Source: an uncultured Verrucomicrobia subdivision 3 bacterium (GTDB taxonomy: Bacteria; Verrucomicrobiota; Verrucomicrobiia; Limisphaerales; UBA11358). From it: 35,390 bases of DNA. This document shows, one piece after another, positions 16,802 to 35,247 of the stretch. The first letter of the stretch is position 1. Each line of letters begins with the position of its first letter. Under the pieces are notes generated by a model that was given only the letters and a program-made list of their open reading frames with translations, made no database searches and was not told the origin of the DNA. Both the position numbers and the translations under genes were made by a program. Location of the stretch: the NCBI GenBank assembly GCA_903842235.1, contig CAIMLG010000292.1, positions 1-35,390 on the forward strand, read 5' to 3'.

Positions 16802-17429
16802 ACTTTGCGAAGGCGGGGCAGAACCCTCCCGAGGCTTGGCGCAAGGAACGCAGCGCAAGTGTCGGGTCGGTGACGCCCAGGGGTCCTTCCGGACTGGCAC
16901 CTTGCCGCACTGGCCATTTTTGGTGCGGCGCACAGGCAATGACCCTACCTCACCCACCGCGCATGTTTTTTAGTTTGGGCGAGGCACCTCATCCGGCCAC
17001 GGCCACCTTCTCCCCAGCGCGGAGAAGGGTATCTCCATCCCGCTGCGCGGGCCGGAGAGGGAATGAAAAAGGCGATCGGCGAGTTTTCGAGCCGTTCGCC
17101 GCCGCGAGCTGCGCCAGCGGCGAGACAGCCATTGACAAACTTTGCGGAAGCCTGGCCGCCGATTGAGGCGGGGGCAGGTTGTCTACAAAGTCAAGAACAC
17201 GCCCAACCTGTCTCAATATTGCCAAGAACTGCTCTATTTACGGGATTAAAGGTTTGCCAGAAAACAGATAACAGCCTCCATTTAAATTGTTTAACCACCG
17301 CCATCACTTTTGTCCTCTCCCCCAAGATAGGATTTCACCGATCGTGCTTTCGGGTTACTTCGGAATTCCAACTTCGGCGGGCAGGTTTAAGGGGCCGGTT
17401 TAGTTTTAAGACGGGGGTTTCCCGGGCGC
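16802..17429. other. gene-free region with three small inverted repeats
   Basis: No convincing gene lies here. GCCGCAC (16904-16910) and GTGCGGC (16923-16929) form a hairpin whose loop contains TTTTT; it could serve as a transcript end for the XRE gene. CCTTCTCC (17006-17013) and GGAGAAGG (17021-17028) form a tight 8-bp stem with a 7-nt loop, in a sequence context that resembles dispersed intergenic repeats. CAGGTTG (17175-17181) and CAACCTG (17204-17210) are a third pair. From about 17226 the DNA becomes A+T-richer up to the end of the PEP-CTERM gene. Short frames seen here look like repeat translations. Confidence 0.5.
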
Positions 17430-26616: not shown

Positions 26617-27597
26617 ATGACCACCTCGTTGAAAGATCAAGTCGCGGAAACGAACGCTTGGATCACCAAACTGCGCGCGGAAATCGCCCACGTCATCGTC
26701 GGGCAGGAACAACTCGTTGAGCGCCTGCTCGTCGGCCTGCTCGCCAACGGCCACGTTTTGCTCGAAGGCGTGCCCGGCCTGGCCAAGACGCTGTCCGTCC
26801 GCACGCTGGCGACCGCCGTGCAGGCCAAATTCAACCGCATCCAGTTCACGCCCGACCTGCTGCCGGCGGACATTCTCGGCACGCTGATCTACAATCCGCA
26901 GGACGGCAAATACCACGTCACGCGCGGACCAATCTTCGCCAACTTCGTCCTCGCCGATGAAATCAACCGCGCGCCCGCCAAGGTGCAAAGCGCGCTGCTC
27001 GAAGCGATGCAAGAGCGCCAAGTCACGCTCGGCGGTGAAACGATGAAGCTGCCGTCGCCGTTTCTCGTGCTGGCCACGGAAAATCCGATTGACCAGGAAG
27101 GCACGTATCCATTGCCCGAAGCGCAGGTGGACCGCTTCATGTTCAAGGTGATTCTCGATTATCCGAACGAGGTGGAAGAAAGAAAAATTCTCGACCGCAT
27201 GGCCTTCACCAGTCCGGAGCAACCGGTAAAGCCCGTCGTCTCCCTTGATGAAATCCTCGCGACGCGCAAGCTGGTGGACCAAATCCACGTGGACGACAAG
27301 ATCCGCGATTACATCGTGAAAATTGTTTTCGCCACGCGCAAGCCGCAGGATTTCAAGCTGGACGTGAAACATTTCATCCAGTTCGGGGCGTCGCCGCGCG
27401 CGACGATTTTCCTGACGCTCGCCGCCAAGGCGTGGGCGCTGCTGCAAGGCCGCGACTACGTGATTCCCGAGGACGTGAAAAGCATCGGCCCCGACGTGTT
27501 GCGCCACCGCATCATCCTCACCTACGAAGCCGAGGCGCAAGCCGTGACCACCGACGCGATCATCAAGAAAGTTTTCAACGCCGTGCCGGTGCCGTGA
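26617..27597 (+). CDS. moxR: MoxR-family AAA+ ATPase
   Basis: MoxR proteins are ATP-driven chaperones that mature or insert cofactors into partner complexes, usually with von Willebrand A-domain proteins encoded next to them. The 326-residue protein shows Walker A GVPGLAKT (51-58), the MoxR stretch QFTPDLLPADILGT, Walker B VLADEINRAP (111-120), the sensor LATENPIDQEGTYPLPEAQVDRFMFK, and the C-terminal lid (ASPRATIFLTLAAKAWALLQGRDYV). It is full length. It heads an operon continuing with DUF58, a DUF4381-like protein and BatA/BatB, but about 5 kb of other genes separate it from DUF58. Its stop overlaps the next start (GTGA). Confidence 0.95.
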   Translation: MTTSLKDQVAETNAWITKLRAEIAHVIVGQEQLVERLLVGLLANGHVLLEGVPGLAKTLSVRTLATAVQAKFNRIQFTPDLLPADILGTLIYNPQDGKYHVTRGPIFANFVLADEINRAPAKVQSALLEAMQERQVTLGGETMKLPSPFLVLATENPIDQEGTYPLPEAQVDRFMFKVILDYPNEVEERKILDRMAFTSPEQPVKPVVSLDEILATRKLVDQIHVDDKIRDYIVKIVFATRKPQDFKLDVKHFIQFGASPRATIFLTLAAKAWALLQGRDYVIPEDVKSIGPDVLRHRIILTYEAEAQAVTTDAIIKKVFNAVPVP

Positions 27598-28261: not shown

Positions 28262-30481
28262 ATGAGCAAACCGTCCGTTCATTTCTTCCGTCACCGCGAA
28301 GCGCTGAAATTGTGCAAACTACTCCTGCTGCTGGGCGGCCTGTTGACCCCGGTGATTTCCCACGCCGACGTGCGCCTGCCGCACGTCTTCGGCAACCACA
28401 TGGTTTTGCAGCAGGAAAAGCCGCTGACCATTTGGGGCTGGGCGACGCCCGGCGAAACGGTCACGGTGAAATTGGATCAGGTCACGCAGACAGCCAATGC
28501 CAATGCCAAGGGCGAATGGAAAGTCGTCTTGCCCGCCATGAAAGCGGCCGGGCCTTACACGCTCGTCGCGAGCGGTTCCAGCACGGTCACGTTGGACGAC
28601 GTGATGATCGGCGAAGTCTGGCTGTGCTCCGGGCAGTCGAACATGCAACTGGACATTGCCAGCGCCAACAATGGCAAAGCGGAAGTGGCCCAGGCCAATC
28701 ACCCCAGCCTCCGCCTGCTGGTGGTGGAACGACGTTGGACGCCCGAACCGCAGCGCGACCTGAGCGGCACCTGGAAAGTTTCTTCCCCGGAAACGCTCAG
28801 CGCGGGTGGTTTTTCCGCCGCCGCCTACTTTTTTGGCCGCGAGCTGAATGACAAACTGGGCGTGGCCGTCGGATTGATCGAGGCGGATTGGGGCGGCACG
28901 CGCATTGAGCCTTGGACGCCGCCCGCAGGCTTCGCGGCGGTGCCGGCTTTGCAGCAGGAATCTGAAAACGTGCAGCAGGGCATTCCGACAAGCCCGTTGC
29001 ACCAGGCGCGCCTGAGCCAGACGCTCGACCAGTATGCGCAGTGGGAAAAAGCCGCACGCCAGGCGCTGACGGCGGAGAGCGCGGTGCCGCCCGTGCCGGT
29101 CTATCCCGATGAATTGCGCCCGCCGCACGAGTTGCAGCAGGCCACGACGCTGTATAATGGCATGATCCATCCGCTGGCGCCGTTCGCCTTCCACGGTGCG
29201 ATCTGGTATCAGGGCGAATCCAATGTGGGCGAAGGCCGCTTGTATGCCGAGCACATGAAAGCCCTCGTGAACGGCTGGCGCACGCTCTGGGGCCAGGGCG
29301 ATTTCCCCTTCTTTTTCGTGCAGATTGCGCCCTACAAATATGAGGGTAAGCAAGAACGCGAGGCGGAACTCTGGGAAGCCCAAGCCATCGCGGCCGACAC
29401 CATTCCCAACGCCGGCATGGCGGTCATCAATGACGTCGGCAATCTCGGCAATATTCACCCCACCGATAAACAAACCGTGGGCCATCGCCTCGCGCTGCTG
29501 GCGCTGGGCAAGACTTATGGGCAGAAGGACCTGGTTTATTCCGGCCCCACCTTCAAGAGCATGACCGTGGCTGACGACCGCCTCCGCGTGACCTTTGATC
29601 ACGCGGGCGGCGGCTTGGCGAGCCGGGATGGAAAGCCGCTGAATTGGTTTGAAATCCTGGACGCCCACGAAGGTGGATTTGTCAAAGCCGAGGCCCGCAT
29701 CGAGGGCGACAGCGTGGTGCTCACCGCGCCCGCCGTGAAACATCCGGTGGCCATGCGGTTTGCCTGGAGCGGCCTGGCCGAACCCAATCTGATGAATGCC
29801 GCCGGCCTTCCCACCGGGGCCTTCCGCGCCGGCGAACGCCCCAAGTCCGTTTGGAGCGGCCTGAACGTTCCCGAAATGAAAGATTATCAATTGGTATATG
29901 ATCTGGACCTGACCCGGCTTGGCGCCGCGTTTAAATACAACGTGGACGACCACTGGAAAATTCAAAAGCCCTTCGACCGCATCGCCTATCTGCTCGAACT
30001 CGAGGACACCCACCAGAACACCCAAGCCATCTATGTTTCCATGGATGCGTTCACGGCCGATGCGGCCAGAATCGGCGTGCCCGTCTTTGGCTCCGGCGCC
30101 TTTTTTCAGCAGAACGTCACCAACCTGAATGTCTATTCCAACGTCAAAGACATCGTCACCGGCACCGGCCTGACCGGCGGCAATATTGAATTTTGGCCAA
30201 ATAACTACGGCGGGGGCAATTCCGCCCAGGTGCCGAATGCGTCCAGCGAGACGCTTGATTTCGGCGATCAAATTTTTGATCCGGCGGACGGCTACGGCAG
30301 CATGCAGGTGCACAATCACGAGGCGCGCCAGACGCTGTTCGCCATCAACCACTGGCGCGAAGGCAGCCGCGCGGACATCGGCATCGGCAATCAACCCACG
30401 GGCAGCCCCGACTGGACGTTTGCGAAGAATGCCGACAGCTACCGCACCATGCGCCTCCGCGTGCTGGTGCGCGGCCGGTGA
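28262..30481 (+). CDS. sialate O-acetylesterase-like SGNH hydrolase with extra C-terminal domain
   Basis: This predicted secreted esterase removes acetyl groups from sialic acid or other glycans. The 739-residue protein has a signal peptide (about 15-35), then DVRLPHVFGNHMVLQ and an Ig-like lead. The SGNH blocks are GQSNMQ with the nucleophile S126, then IWYQGESN at 314-321, and the D/H pair in NDVGNLGNIHPTDK (D391, H399). After the catalytic domain a second beta-rich domain of roughly 170 residues (about 565-739) is present that the basic family lacks. I start at the ATG at 28262, just before the signal peptide. The gene interrupts the moxR-DUF58 operon. Confidence 0.9.
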   Translation: MSKPSVHFFRHREALKLCKLLLLLGGLLTPVISHADVRLPHVFGNHMVLQQEKPLTIWGWATPGETVTVKLDQVTQTANANAKGEWKVVLPAMKAAGPYTLVASGSSTVTLDDVMIGEVWLCSGQSNMQLDIASANNGKAEVAQANHPSLRLLVVERRWTPEPQRDLSGTWKVSSPETLSAGGFSAAAYFFGRELNDKLGVAVGLIEADWGGTRIEPWTPPAGFAAVPALQQESENVQQGIPTSPLHQARLSQTLDQYAQWEKAARQALTAESAVPPVPVYPDELRPPHELQQATTLYNGMIHPLAPFAFHGAIWYQGESNVGEGRLYAEHMKALVNGWRTLWGQGDFPFFFVQIAPYKYEGKQEREAELWEAQAIAADTIPNAGMAVINDVGNLGNIHPTDKQTVGHRLALLALGKTYGQKDLVYSGPTFKSMTVADDRLRVTFDHAGGGLASRDGKPLNWFEILDAHEGGFVKAEARIEGDSVVLTAPAVKHPVAMRFAWSGLAEPNLMNAAGLPTGAFRAGERPKSVWSGLNVPEMKDYQLVYDLDLTRLGAAFKYNVDDHWKIQKPFDRIAYLLELEDTHQNTQAIYVSMDAFTADAARIGVPVFGSGAFFQQNVTNLNVYSNVKDIVTGTGLTGGNIEFWPNNYGGGNSAQVPNASSETLDFGDQIFDPADGYGSMQVHNHEARQTLFAINHWREGSRADIGIGNQPTGSPDWTFAKNADSYRTMRLRVLVRGR

Positions 30482-30531
30482 TGACGGGGGCGATCATCAA
30501 GAAAGTGTTCAACGCCGCGCCGATGACGTGA
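30481..30531 (+). pseudogene. second copy of the moxR 3' end, now a 16-residue mini-frame
   Basis: Positions 30490-30531 match the last 14 codons of moxR (27556-27597) at 38 of 42 positions. The copy reads MTGAIIKKVFNAAPMT, compared with TTDAIIKKVFNAVPVP in moxR. Its ATG overlaps the esterase stop (TGATG at 30479-30483) and its stop overlaps the next gene's ATG (30529-30533). The fragment therefore links the two neighbours translationally. Confidence 0.8.
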
Positions 30532-31773: not shown

Positions 31774-31853
31774 ATGACCGTCACCGAACTCCTCGAATCT
31801 GTCCGCCGCGTGGAAGCCCGCACGAACCGGCTCGCGAACGATACGATGGGCGG
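31774..31853 (+). pseudogene. 80-nt copy of the DUF58 gene start
   Basis: It matches the first 80 nt of the DUF58 gene at 32566 with 73 of 80 identical bases. Five of the seven differences leave the protein unchanged, so the copy evolved as coding sequence before it was truncated. Homology ends abruptly after ATGGGCGG. The rest of the gap to 31904 holds no other recognisable feature. Confidence 0.85.
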
Positions 31854-32565: not shown

Positions 32566-33549
32566 ATGACTGTCACCGAACTGCTCGAATCCGTCCGCCG
32601 CGTGGAAGTCCGCACGAACCGCCTCGTGAACGACACGATGGGCGGCGCCTATTTGAGCGGCTTCAAGGGGCGCGGCATGGACTTCGAGGATTTGCGCGAA
32701 TACATGCCCGGCGATGACGTGCGCGCCATTGACTGGAATGTCACGCATCGCCTCGGTCGGCCGTTCGTGAAGCGCTTCCGCGAGGAGCGCGAACTCACCG
32801 CCGTCCTCGCCGTGGACGTGTCCGCTTCGTCCAGCTTCGGCTCGGCCAACCGCACCAAGCGCGAGTTCGCGGCCGAGATTGCCGCCACGCTCGCGATGTC
32901 CGCCGCCAAAAACGGAGACAAGGTCGCGCTGCTGCTCTTCACCGACGAAGTGGAATTGTTCGTTCCGCCGCGCAAAGGCCGGCGACACATTTTACGGCTG
33001 GTGCGGGAGCTGTTGATGTTTCAGCCCAAGAAGCGCAGCACGGACATTTCCCAGGCGCTCGGTTTCTTGAACCACGTCCTGAACCGCCGGGCGCTGGTGT
33101 TTTTGCTTACGGATTTTTTACACTCGGGCGGCGGGGATTCTCCTCGTCCTGCCTTCTCGTCCTCGTCCTCGAACCGTTCCAGAAAAATCGAGGACGAAGG
33201 ACGAGAAGGAGGAGGATTTGGCGACCGCGACGTCATCGCCGAACTCGGCCTCACCAACACGCGGCACGACGTGGTCTGCCTGCACCTGCACGATCCGCGC
33301 GAGAGCGAATTGCCGGATGCCGGCCTCGTTACCATCGAAGATGCCGAGACCGGCGAGTTGCTGGAGCTGGATTCGGGGCGCGGGGCGGTGCGCGAACGGT
33401 TTGCCGCCGTCAACGCCGAGCGACTGGCGGAACTGGATCGCGCGTTCACTCGCACCGGCGTGGATACGCTGCGCCTTCAGACCACCGAGCCGTTTGCGCC
33501 GGCGCTGCAACGCTTCTTTGAACTCCGCCGCGGGCGACGTCGTGGTTAA
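32566..33549 (+). CDS. DUF58 domain protein of the MoxR/Bat operon
   Basis: DUF58 proteins contain a von Willebrand A-like fold and are thought to link MoxR to its targets. The 327-residue protein has the signature GFKGRGMDFEDLREYMPGDD at 32-51 and then DVRAIDWNVTHRLGRPFVK. The A-domain strand LAVDVSASS lies at 81-89, the strand ALVFLLTDF at 176-184 and RHDVVCLHLHDPRE at 233-246. Between about 187 and 220 there is an extra Ser, Arg and Gly-rich stretch encoded by a palindromic repeat element. Relatives normally run straight from the TDF strand to the helix before HDVV. The reading frame is kept, so the protein is probably still made. Confidence 0.92.
   Translation: MTVTELLESVRRVEVRTNRLVNDTMGGAYLSGFKGRGMDFEDLREYMPGDDVRAIDWNVTHRLGRPFVKRFREERELTAVLAVDVSASSSFGSANRTKREFAAEIAATLAMSAAKNGDKVALLLFTDEVELFVPPRKGRRHILRLVRELLMFQPKKRSTDISQALGFLNHVLNRRALVFLLTDFLHSGGGDSPRPAFSSSSSNRSRKIEDEGREGGGFGDRDVIAELGLTNTRHDVVCLHLHDPRESELPDAGLVTIEDAETGELLELDSGRGAVRERFAAVNAERLAELDRAFTRTGVDTLRLQTTEPFAPALQRFFELRRGRRRG
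33153..33208. repeat. palindromic repeat inserted in frame within the DUF58 gene
   Basis: The left arm 33153-33172 (CTTCTCGTCC then TCGTCCTCGA) and the right arm 33188-33208 (TCGAGGACGA then AGGACGAGAAG) are inverse copies apart from one extra base. The loop is 15 nt. The pattern of GAGGACGA blocks is typical of dispersed palindromic repeats. Looser pairing extends to about 33139-33218. Confidence 0.75.
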
Positions 33550-33573
33550 ATTGGAAATGAACCATCAGCCTTC

Positions 33574-33650
33574 AACATTGAACCTGCAACGCCCAAGGAA
33601 ATTGGGCGGTGAGCGTCGCGTTCGGTGTTGGACGTTGAAGGTTCAATGTT
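33574..33650. repeat. palindromic repeat across the DUF58/DUF4381 boundary
   Basis: The arms 33574-33591 (AACATTGAACCTGCAACG) and 33633-33650 are inverse copies at 17 of 18 positions. Inside, CGCCCAA (33590-33596) and TTGGGCG (33602-33608) form a second hairpin. The element ends 2 nt before the ATG at 33653 and is open in the next gene's frame, so it adds an artificial N-terminus to the longest version of that gene. Confidence 0.75.
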
Positions 33651-33652
33651 CA

Positions 33653-34210
33653 ATGTTTCTGCTGTTGTCGGCACTGCCGCTTTGCGCCCAGACAGCCACG
33701 AACGACCCGTTCGCGCTCGCACCGGCTTACGGCGAAATTCCGGCGACCTTTTGGGAGCGGCACGGCACCGGCATTTGCATCGGGGTGCCGCTCTTTCTCG
33801 CGTTGGGTGCATGGGTTTGCTGGGCGTTATTTCGACCCCGTTCACAACCGGTTCCGCCCCCGGCTGACCGGGCGCGGGCGGCGCTGGCAAAAATACAGGG
33901 GCAGACCGAAGACGCCGCAATTGTCGGCGCGATTTCCAGAATCGTGCGCGAGTATGTCTGCGCGGCGTGCCAATTGCCTCCCGGCGAATGGACCACGGCC
34001 GACCTGTCGGCTGCGATTGGGCATAATGAGCAGTTGGGCGCGGAACTGGCCAAGGCAATCGCTGATTTTTTGCGCGAATGCGACGAACAAAAATTTTCGA
34101 CCGGCACAGCTGCGTTTCCGCTGGGCGGCGCCCATCGCGCGTGGCGGCTGATCGAAATGGCGGAGCAACGCCGCGCGGCCGGACAACCGCAACCCTCCGC
34201 TGCCCAATGA
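33653..34210 (+). CDS. DUF4381-like membrane protein of the Bat operon
   Basis: The 185-residue protein, from the ATG at 33653, starts with a signal peptide (MFLLLSALPLCA, cleavage before QTATND). It has one membrane helix near 40-60 (GICIGVPLFLALGAWVCWALF) and a cytoplasmic helical domain with an IVREYVCAACQLPPGEWTT stretch. Position between DUF58 and BatA, size and layout fit DUF4381/BatX-type proteins. A longer start at 33557 would add residues translated from the palindromic repeat (PSTLNLQ and similar) and hide the signal peptide, so I prefer 33653. The stop overlaps the batA start (ATGA). Confidence 0.8.
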   Translation: MFLLLSALPLCAQTATNDPFALAPAYGEIPATFWERHGTGICIGVPLFLALGAWVCWALFRPRSQPVPPPADRARAALAKIQGQTEDAAIVGAISRIVREYVCAACQLPPGEWTTADLSAAIGHNEQLGAELAKAIADFLRECDEQKFSTGTAAFPLGGAHRAWRLIEMAEQRRAAGQPQPSAAQ

Positions 34211-35247
34211 CTGGCGAATTTGAATTCCAATTCCCGTGGGTGCTGGCGCTGCTGGGCCTGCTGCCGGTTTATGCCCTGCTGCTGGGAAAACATGGGCGGC
34301 TTTCGGCCCTGACCTTTTCCAGCGCGGAAATTGCCCGGGCGGCCGGCGCCAAAGCCCGGGCGGCCATCGGACGCTTGCTGCTTTTTCTCCGGCTGCTCGT
34401 CGTGGCGCTGGGCATCGGGGCATTGGCCGCGCCGCGCCTGGCGAATTATCACGTCGAGACCGAGACCCCGGGCATCGACATCATGCTCGTGCTGGATTTG
34501 TCGTGGTCGATGATGGCGGTGGACATGGGCCGGCCGTCGGAAAAATTATCGCGCTATGCGATTGCCTCCGGGGTTTTGAAAAGTTTCATTCAGGAACGGC
34601 CGAATGACCGCATCGGCCTGATCGCCTTTTCCGGCGTGCCGTATCTGGCCAGCCCGCTGACCCTGAATCACGACTGGCTGATCGACAACCTGGAGCGCCT
34701 GCACGTCGGGCTGATCGGCGACCTCGGCACCGCCATAGGCGATGCGGTGGCGGTGGGGGCCAAGCGCTTAAAAGCCGTGCCCAACAGCAAAAGCCGCGTG
34801 ATCATTCTGCTGACGGATGGCGATAACAACGCCGGCAAAATTGATCCCCTGCCCGCCGCGCAGCTGGCGGCGGCGCTGGGAGCCAGAATTTACACCATCG
34901 GCATCGGCGTGGAGCAGCCGTGCAATTTGCCCGCGTTCGAGCCCGCCACGGGAAAGCTCAAGCTCGACCCCAACGGAAATATCATTCCCACCATCCTGCT
35001 GCAGCCGGCGAACTACGCGGTGCTGGGCCAGATGGCGGCCCTGTCCGGGGGGCACTTTTACCGGGCCACCAGCCAGCGCGAATTGCAGAGCATTTACAGC
35101 CAGATTGATCATTTGGAAAAATCTGAAGTCAAACTCCGGCGGTTCGCCACCTATCAGCCGCTCTATCCCTGGCCGCTGGGCGCCGCGCTGGCGCTGCTGG
35201 CGCTGGAACTGGTTTTGCGGAGCACCAAATATCGCCGCGTGCCATGA
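34207..35247 (+). CDS. batA: von Willebrand A-domain membrane protein, BatA type
   Basis: The 346-residue inner-membrane protein has two N-terminal helices (about 10-27 and 56-76), a von Willebrand A domain (about 90-290) and a C-terminal helix (about 325-340). The metal-ion site is complete: D97-x-S99-x-S101 (DLSWS), T175 in GDLGTAIGD and D204 in LLTDGD. BatA/BatB proteins form surface or periplasmic complexes linked to MoxR and to envelope stress tolerance; the exact role in this phylum is unknown. The start ATG overlaps the upstream stop, and the stop overlaps the next start. Confidence 0.92.
   Translation: MTGEFEFQFPWVLALLGLLPVYALLLGKHGRLSALTFSSAEIARAAGAKARAAIGRLLLFLRLLVVALGIGALAAPRLANYHVETETPGIDIMLVLDLSWSMMAVDMGRPSEKLSRYAIASGVLKSFIQERPNDRIGLIAFSGVPYLASPLTLNHDWLIDNLERLHVGLIGDLGTAIGDAVAVGAKRLKAVPNSKSRVIILLTDGDNNAGKIDPLPAAQLAAALGARIYTIGIGVEQPCNLPAFEPATGKLKLDPNGNIIPTILLQPANYAVLGQMAALSGGHFYRATSQRELQSIYSQIDHLEKSEVKLRRFATYQPLYPWPLGAALALLALELVLRSTKYRRVP

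Follow-up and report, generated by a model that had tools for sequence, protein, structure and literature searches.

The window, a stretch of 35,390 nt from an uncultured Verrucomicrobia subdivision 3 bacterium, contains a MoxR-DUF58-BatA gene cluster (Table 1), and the DUF58 gene carries a palindromic repeat in its coding sequence. The DUF58 product matches the profiles PF01882 (DUF58; residues 42-285, E 1.1e-73) and PF13519 (VWA_2; residues 80-184). Residues D84, S86, S88, T159 and D183 are invariant in an alignment of 52 homologues, a pattern (DxSxS, T, D) that would be expected of a MIDAS, and we treat them as candidate MIDAS residues. An AF2 model built on this 52-sequence alignment has a pLDDT of 78, and Foldseek matches it to BatB, NorD and other vWA domains; this model superseded one that drew on 23 close sequences, whose quality was too low (pLDDT 53). 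The model places a strand (176-182) before and a helix (223-233) after residues 187-219, whose pLDDT is about 35, and the loop that follows Asp183 is predicted to be disordered. The earlier note, made from the letters alone, had suggested that the repeat may create a surface loop, and the insert does fall in this loop, which links a strand of the vWA fold to the helix after it and is predicted to be disordered.

Table 1. Features of the DUF58 locus, in positions of the window.
Feature	Position	Strand	Length	Evidence
MoxR AAA+ ATPase, upstream partner in the MoxR-DUF58-BatA cluster	26617..27597	+		PF07726, E 2.8e-64
DUF58 (vWA-fold) gene	32566..33549	+	327 aa	PF01882 and PF13519 profile matches, invariant MIDAS candidates, AF2/Foldseek
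Variable loop of DUF58 (residues about 188-219)	33127..33222	+		ortholog alignment and loop extraction; low pLDDT
Type A palindromic repeat element	33136..33224	.		covariance model R1: 73.1 bits, E 6e-15
Hairpin left arm	33152..33172	+		arm pairing, RNA fold
Apical loop ACCGTTCCAGAAAAA region between arms	33173..33187	.		arm pairing, RNA fold
Hairpin right arm, one bulged A	33188..33209	+		arm pairing, RNA fold
BatA-like vWA gene, downstream of DUF58	34207..35247	+		PF00092 / PF07584

The near-perfect hairpin described in the earlier note was confirmed with slightly refined arms: 33152-33172 pairs with 33188-33209, with a few further outer pairs, and the arms consist of GAGGAC-like repeats. 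The minimum free energy of the RNA from 33133-33222 is -50.4 kcal/mol, compared to -31.2 +/- 3.5 for dinucleotide shuffles (z -5.5), none of which (0 of 200) folds as low; folded as DNA, the hairpin has a z-score of -5.6. A folding scan of the whole 35 kb ranked it fourth among 1766 80-nt windows, and the three that outrank it all come from two GC-rich stretches. An Rfam search with the hairpin returned only sub-threshold microRNA matches, as any long hairpin draws. The insert encodes SPRPAFSSSSSNRSRKIEDEGREGGGFG, with SSSSSNRSRKIEDEGR as a stretch of the peptide, and the DUF58 reading frame runs uninterrupted across the hairpin, with the PF01882 match spanning both sides. This copy has no stop in any of the six frames over 33136-33216, and its absorption would thus be possible in every phase as long as its length is a multiple of three.

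The neighboring DNA holds further repeats (below, L, G and C numbers denote loci, genomes and contigs). The first 80 nt of DUF58 recur as a 91% copy at positions 31774-31853, and the last 63 nt of MoxR as a 79% copy at 30469-30531; these end copies bound cargo genes for a SASA esterase, an unknown and an NTP_transf_2/HepT-like pair. L012/L070 and L071 have DUF58 5' fragments of a similar kind upstream, and protein matches place such fragments in G005, G032, G044 and others as well. The MoxR-DUF58 junction looks like a place of recurrent insertion that regenerates gene ends. A second palindrome (33571-33653; 26-nt arms, 88% complementary) follows closely on the stop codon of DUF58 and extends over the start of the ORF that comes next, in which a signal-peptide-like start, MFLLLSALPLCAQ, begins from about 33654; it has relatives at a few other places in the genome.

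The hairpin in DUF58 belongs to a dispersed family, which we call type A. Of the 320 genomes of the order that were scanned for its core palindrome, CGTCCTCGA(2-30)TCGAGGACG, 36 contain it, one of them at as many as 74 places, while a reversed-pattern control was positive in 2 of the 320. Most of the listed matches show long mirrored GAGGAC-like arms; a few lack extended arms and look chance-like (e.g., L044, L045, L052 and L059). In the source genome, searching for the arm pattern with 3 mismatches allowed, the kind of copy search that had been proposed, gave no excess over the control, because the copies there are mostly divergent. A covariance model (R1, from 22 elements) took its place and detected about 20 places at E<=1e-3, with the DUF58 copy, itself one of the training elements, as the second-best match. 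About 11 of these places share 100-400 bp with each other and are thus members of a longer hairpin-carrying repeat. A longer repeat of 150-400 bp, with a type A-like hairpin in it, is seen near the ends of contigs G000:C130, C295, C56, C107, C247 and C197 (L226, L230-L233 and L235) and probably breaks the assembly of the source genome. A pattern that included the apical loop, run on 97 relatives, matched only the DUF58 copy. The copies in the source genome were inspected along with the long ORFs and flanking DNA around them. As stops are rare in the arms, open frames pass through many type A copies. Type A is multicopy and palindromic, as a dispersed REP-like element should be, and these counts together with the open frame in DUF58 bear out the proposal that a dispersed repeat became coding without a break in the frame. 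Literature searches for GAGGACGAGGACGAG returned unrelated papers only, and searches on such repeats in this bacterial group returned nothing beyond PMC3733652. Type A apparently represents an undescribed family of GAGGAC-arm hairpins distributed across this verrucomicrobial order.

The loop that holds the hairpin also varies among orthologues. In an alignment of 34 DUF58 orthologues, the flanks are nearly constant at 184 codons upstream and 93-94 downstream (exceptions: a shorter upstream part where a contig begins, 91 codons downstream in the distant L076, and L030, which meets assembly Ns), so nearly all of the length change sits in this loop, which ranges from 18 to over 50 codons. Between residue L185 and the residue before H234, the insert-free loci L024-L027 have 24 codons, whereas the DUF58 gene of the window has 49; insert-free loops occur in L024-L029 and others (L070 is identical to L012, and L071 to L024, over the DUF58 gene). 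All extracted loops have nucleotide lengths divisible by 3. Other palindromes occupy the site in many orthologues: type B in L010, L013, L015, L021 and L023, and in degraded form in L016 and L020; type C in L012, L018, L030, L072 and L191; type D in L017, L074 and perhaps L011; and type F, with two perfect arms of about 30 nt, in L073. The assignments of L011 to type D, of L014 and L019 to other types, and of L016 and L020 to degraded type B were made by eye. In L030 (G007:C176), a run of Ns separates two partial type C copies. The paralogue L032 (G006:C47) carries a type E palindrome at the equivalent loop; in the other paralogues of the sampled genomes, the loop measures 66-69 nt in group 2 and 117-120 nt in group 3.

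These palindromes are also dispersed. Pattern scans, with reversed controls at or near zero, located type B in 37 of 49 genomes (up to 70 places), type C in 27 of 49 (up to 26) and type D in 38 of 49 (up to 50), as well as about 40 places for type F in G320 and about 19 for type E in G006. The same genome-wide scans recover in-gene copies of type B (G005:C84), type C (G007:C176 and G015:C230), type D (G013:C84), type F (G320:C831) and, in the paralogue, type E (G006:C47). The window itself contains another type C-like hairpin at 17007-17070 (CCTTCTCCCCAGCGCGGAGAAGG). As judged from these sequence comparisons, the DUF58 loop is an insertion hot spot for at least five unrelated palindrome families (A, B, C, D and F). 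The insert had been thought to be unique, and this is true of its residues, which are shared by none of the 33 other orthologues, but not of the site, which holds other palindromes elsewhere. The residues were likewise not seen without the palindrome in any of the 33, as they would be if they were ancestral protein sequence. The arms, being built of GAGGAC-like repeats, could in principle reflect ancestral low-complexity sequence or Ser/Glu codon slippage with an incidental palindrome; we consider this very improbable, given also that the whole element, both arms included, resembles elements elsewhere and that relatives have palindromes of other, unrelated kinds at this site.

Folding of the inserts differs among species. 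The palindromes of the DUF58 gene of the window, L010, L012, L013, L015, L030, L072, L073 and L191 form stable hairpins that beat every other stretch of their own gene, as would be expected if they were kept as RNA hairpins that slow or attenuate translation of the MoxR-DUF58-Bat cluster. However, the B- and C-type inserts of L016, L018, L020, L021 and L023 do not fold significantly better than chance (z 0.4 to -1.3), L024-L029 and others, close relatives among them, are insert-free, and the hairpins of different species are unrelated. An RNA role alone would also not require such strict keeping of the frame. Attenuation through mRNA structure, as the earlier note had suggested, is thus disfavored, because the structure is not conserved while the frame is, and we regard it as quite improbable. 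Inserts that are recognizable by sequence yet fold near chance fit a decay of dyad symmetry after insertion, and the weakly folding inserts may well be decayed copies.

Insert types are scattered on the gene tree, which was built on 834 flanking sites. They need 18 changes by parsimony, close to the mean of 19.1 for shuffled labels. As many inner branches are weakly supported and some labels were set by eye, parsimony gives only an estimate of how many gains were independent. Near-sister genes within one supported clade differ, L025 having no insert and L191 a type C element. Comparison of the DUF58 gene of the window with its relatives, in which the genomes of the genus are drafts, gives a dN/dS of 0.05-0.13 in the flanks, and the C-terminal 94 conserved codons remain in frame downstream of the insert. 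The insert is thus a multiple of three, lacks a stop and is followed by sequence under purifying selection. Splicing or bypass would not demand a length that is a multiple of three, so translation of the insert into protein is the simplest reading of these sequences. The source genome is a draft (354 contigs, 89% complete) with repeats near several of its contig ends, which would leave room for an assembly artefact or a dead gene; this possibility is close to negligible, as over 2 kb separate the insert from the end of its 35-kb contig, inserts of this kind also appear in independent assemblies, and the C-terminal codons are kept in frame with low dN/dS.

Several known systems resemble the DUF58 case in part. 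Rickettsia palindromic elements (RPE) are dispersed and inserted in frame in many protein genes, where they encode extra peptides (PMC10969869, PMC3733652). The likeness lies in this mode of insertion only: in Rickettsia, which belongs to another phylum, a few families enter many genes, whereas the DUF58 case has one loop of a single orthologue group receiving at least five. GTAG and CGTC REPs are also found inside ORFs; intragenic GTAG repeats are most numerous in the verrucomicrobium Opitutus terrae, and recB of two Xanthomonas species carries different REPs at about the same site (BMC Genomics 2013, PMC3733652). The DUF58 loop is like recB in this respect, but here the shared site spans many species and at least five families. 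Type A itself is longer than these REPs and has arms of GAGGAC-like units. GTAG is absent from the DUF58 copy, and the flanks examined around the six Y1_Tnp genes of the source genome contain no type A. CGTC recurs within the paired arms with no clear unpaired terminal tag; in CGTC REPs, a stem-loop of 20-40 bp bears CGTC unpaired at one of its ends. Type A does not appear to belong to the GTAG REP/RAYT group. It resembles MITEs in being short, inverted-repeat and multicopy, but no parent transposase, IS-derived terminal repeat or target-site duplication was found for it.

We propose that the DUF58 loop is a permissive, recurrent landing site at which selfish hairpins of unrelated families are absorbed and tolerated, and we consider this explanation probable. 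Selfish hairpins would insert all over the genome, and those within genes would persist only in tolerant loops and with the reading frame intact. A type A copy would have landed in the loop after the MIDAS aspartate of the DUF58 vWA protein and been retained there, since its length was a multiple of three, it brought no stop codon and it met a loop that tolerates extra residues. Copies of families A, B, C, D and F would have been inserted at the same loop in separate lineages, presumably by transposition, and read through by translation; later they may lose dyad symmetry by mutation, be deleted or be replaced. We infer that the clustering of inserts at this loop reflects the survival of insertions, not targeting, and that the loop is more likely tolerant than useful.

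vWA domains commonly bind partners via the MIDAS face. This property, the position of the loop immediately after Asp183, and its fast turnover in this orthologue group compared to the steady 66-69 nt of paralogue group 2 would suit a MIDAS-adjacent loop that is selected for diversity (e.g., in partner choice), with palindromes supplying new loop sequence. We find this rather unlikely, because the insert peptides are of low complexity and predicted to be disordered, many species are insert-free, and relaxed constraint would account for the pattern of these unalignable inserts just as well. A more specific form, in which the MIDAS-facing loop would be a dedicated acceptor that recruits many palindrome families to diversify the partner-binding face of this MoxR-associated vWA protein, is a little less likely again.

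Under tolerated absorption, the explanation that we favor, the process extends what was already known: in-frame palindromic insertions had been described mainly in Rickettsia and some REP-rich genomes, and what is new here is the type A family and the reuse of a single loop by several families in several species. This one DUF58 loop offers a natural series in related species, in which the site is empty or holds a near-perfect palindrome, a weakly folding one or a replacement, from at least five families. With it one can test if selfish hairpins contribute to the evolution of proteins or are no more than tolerated.
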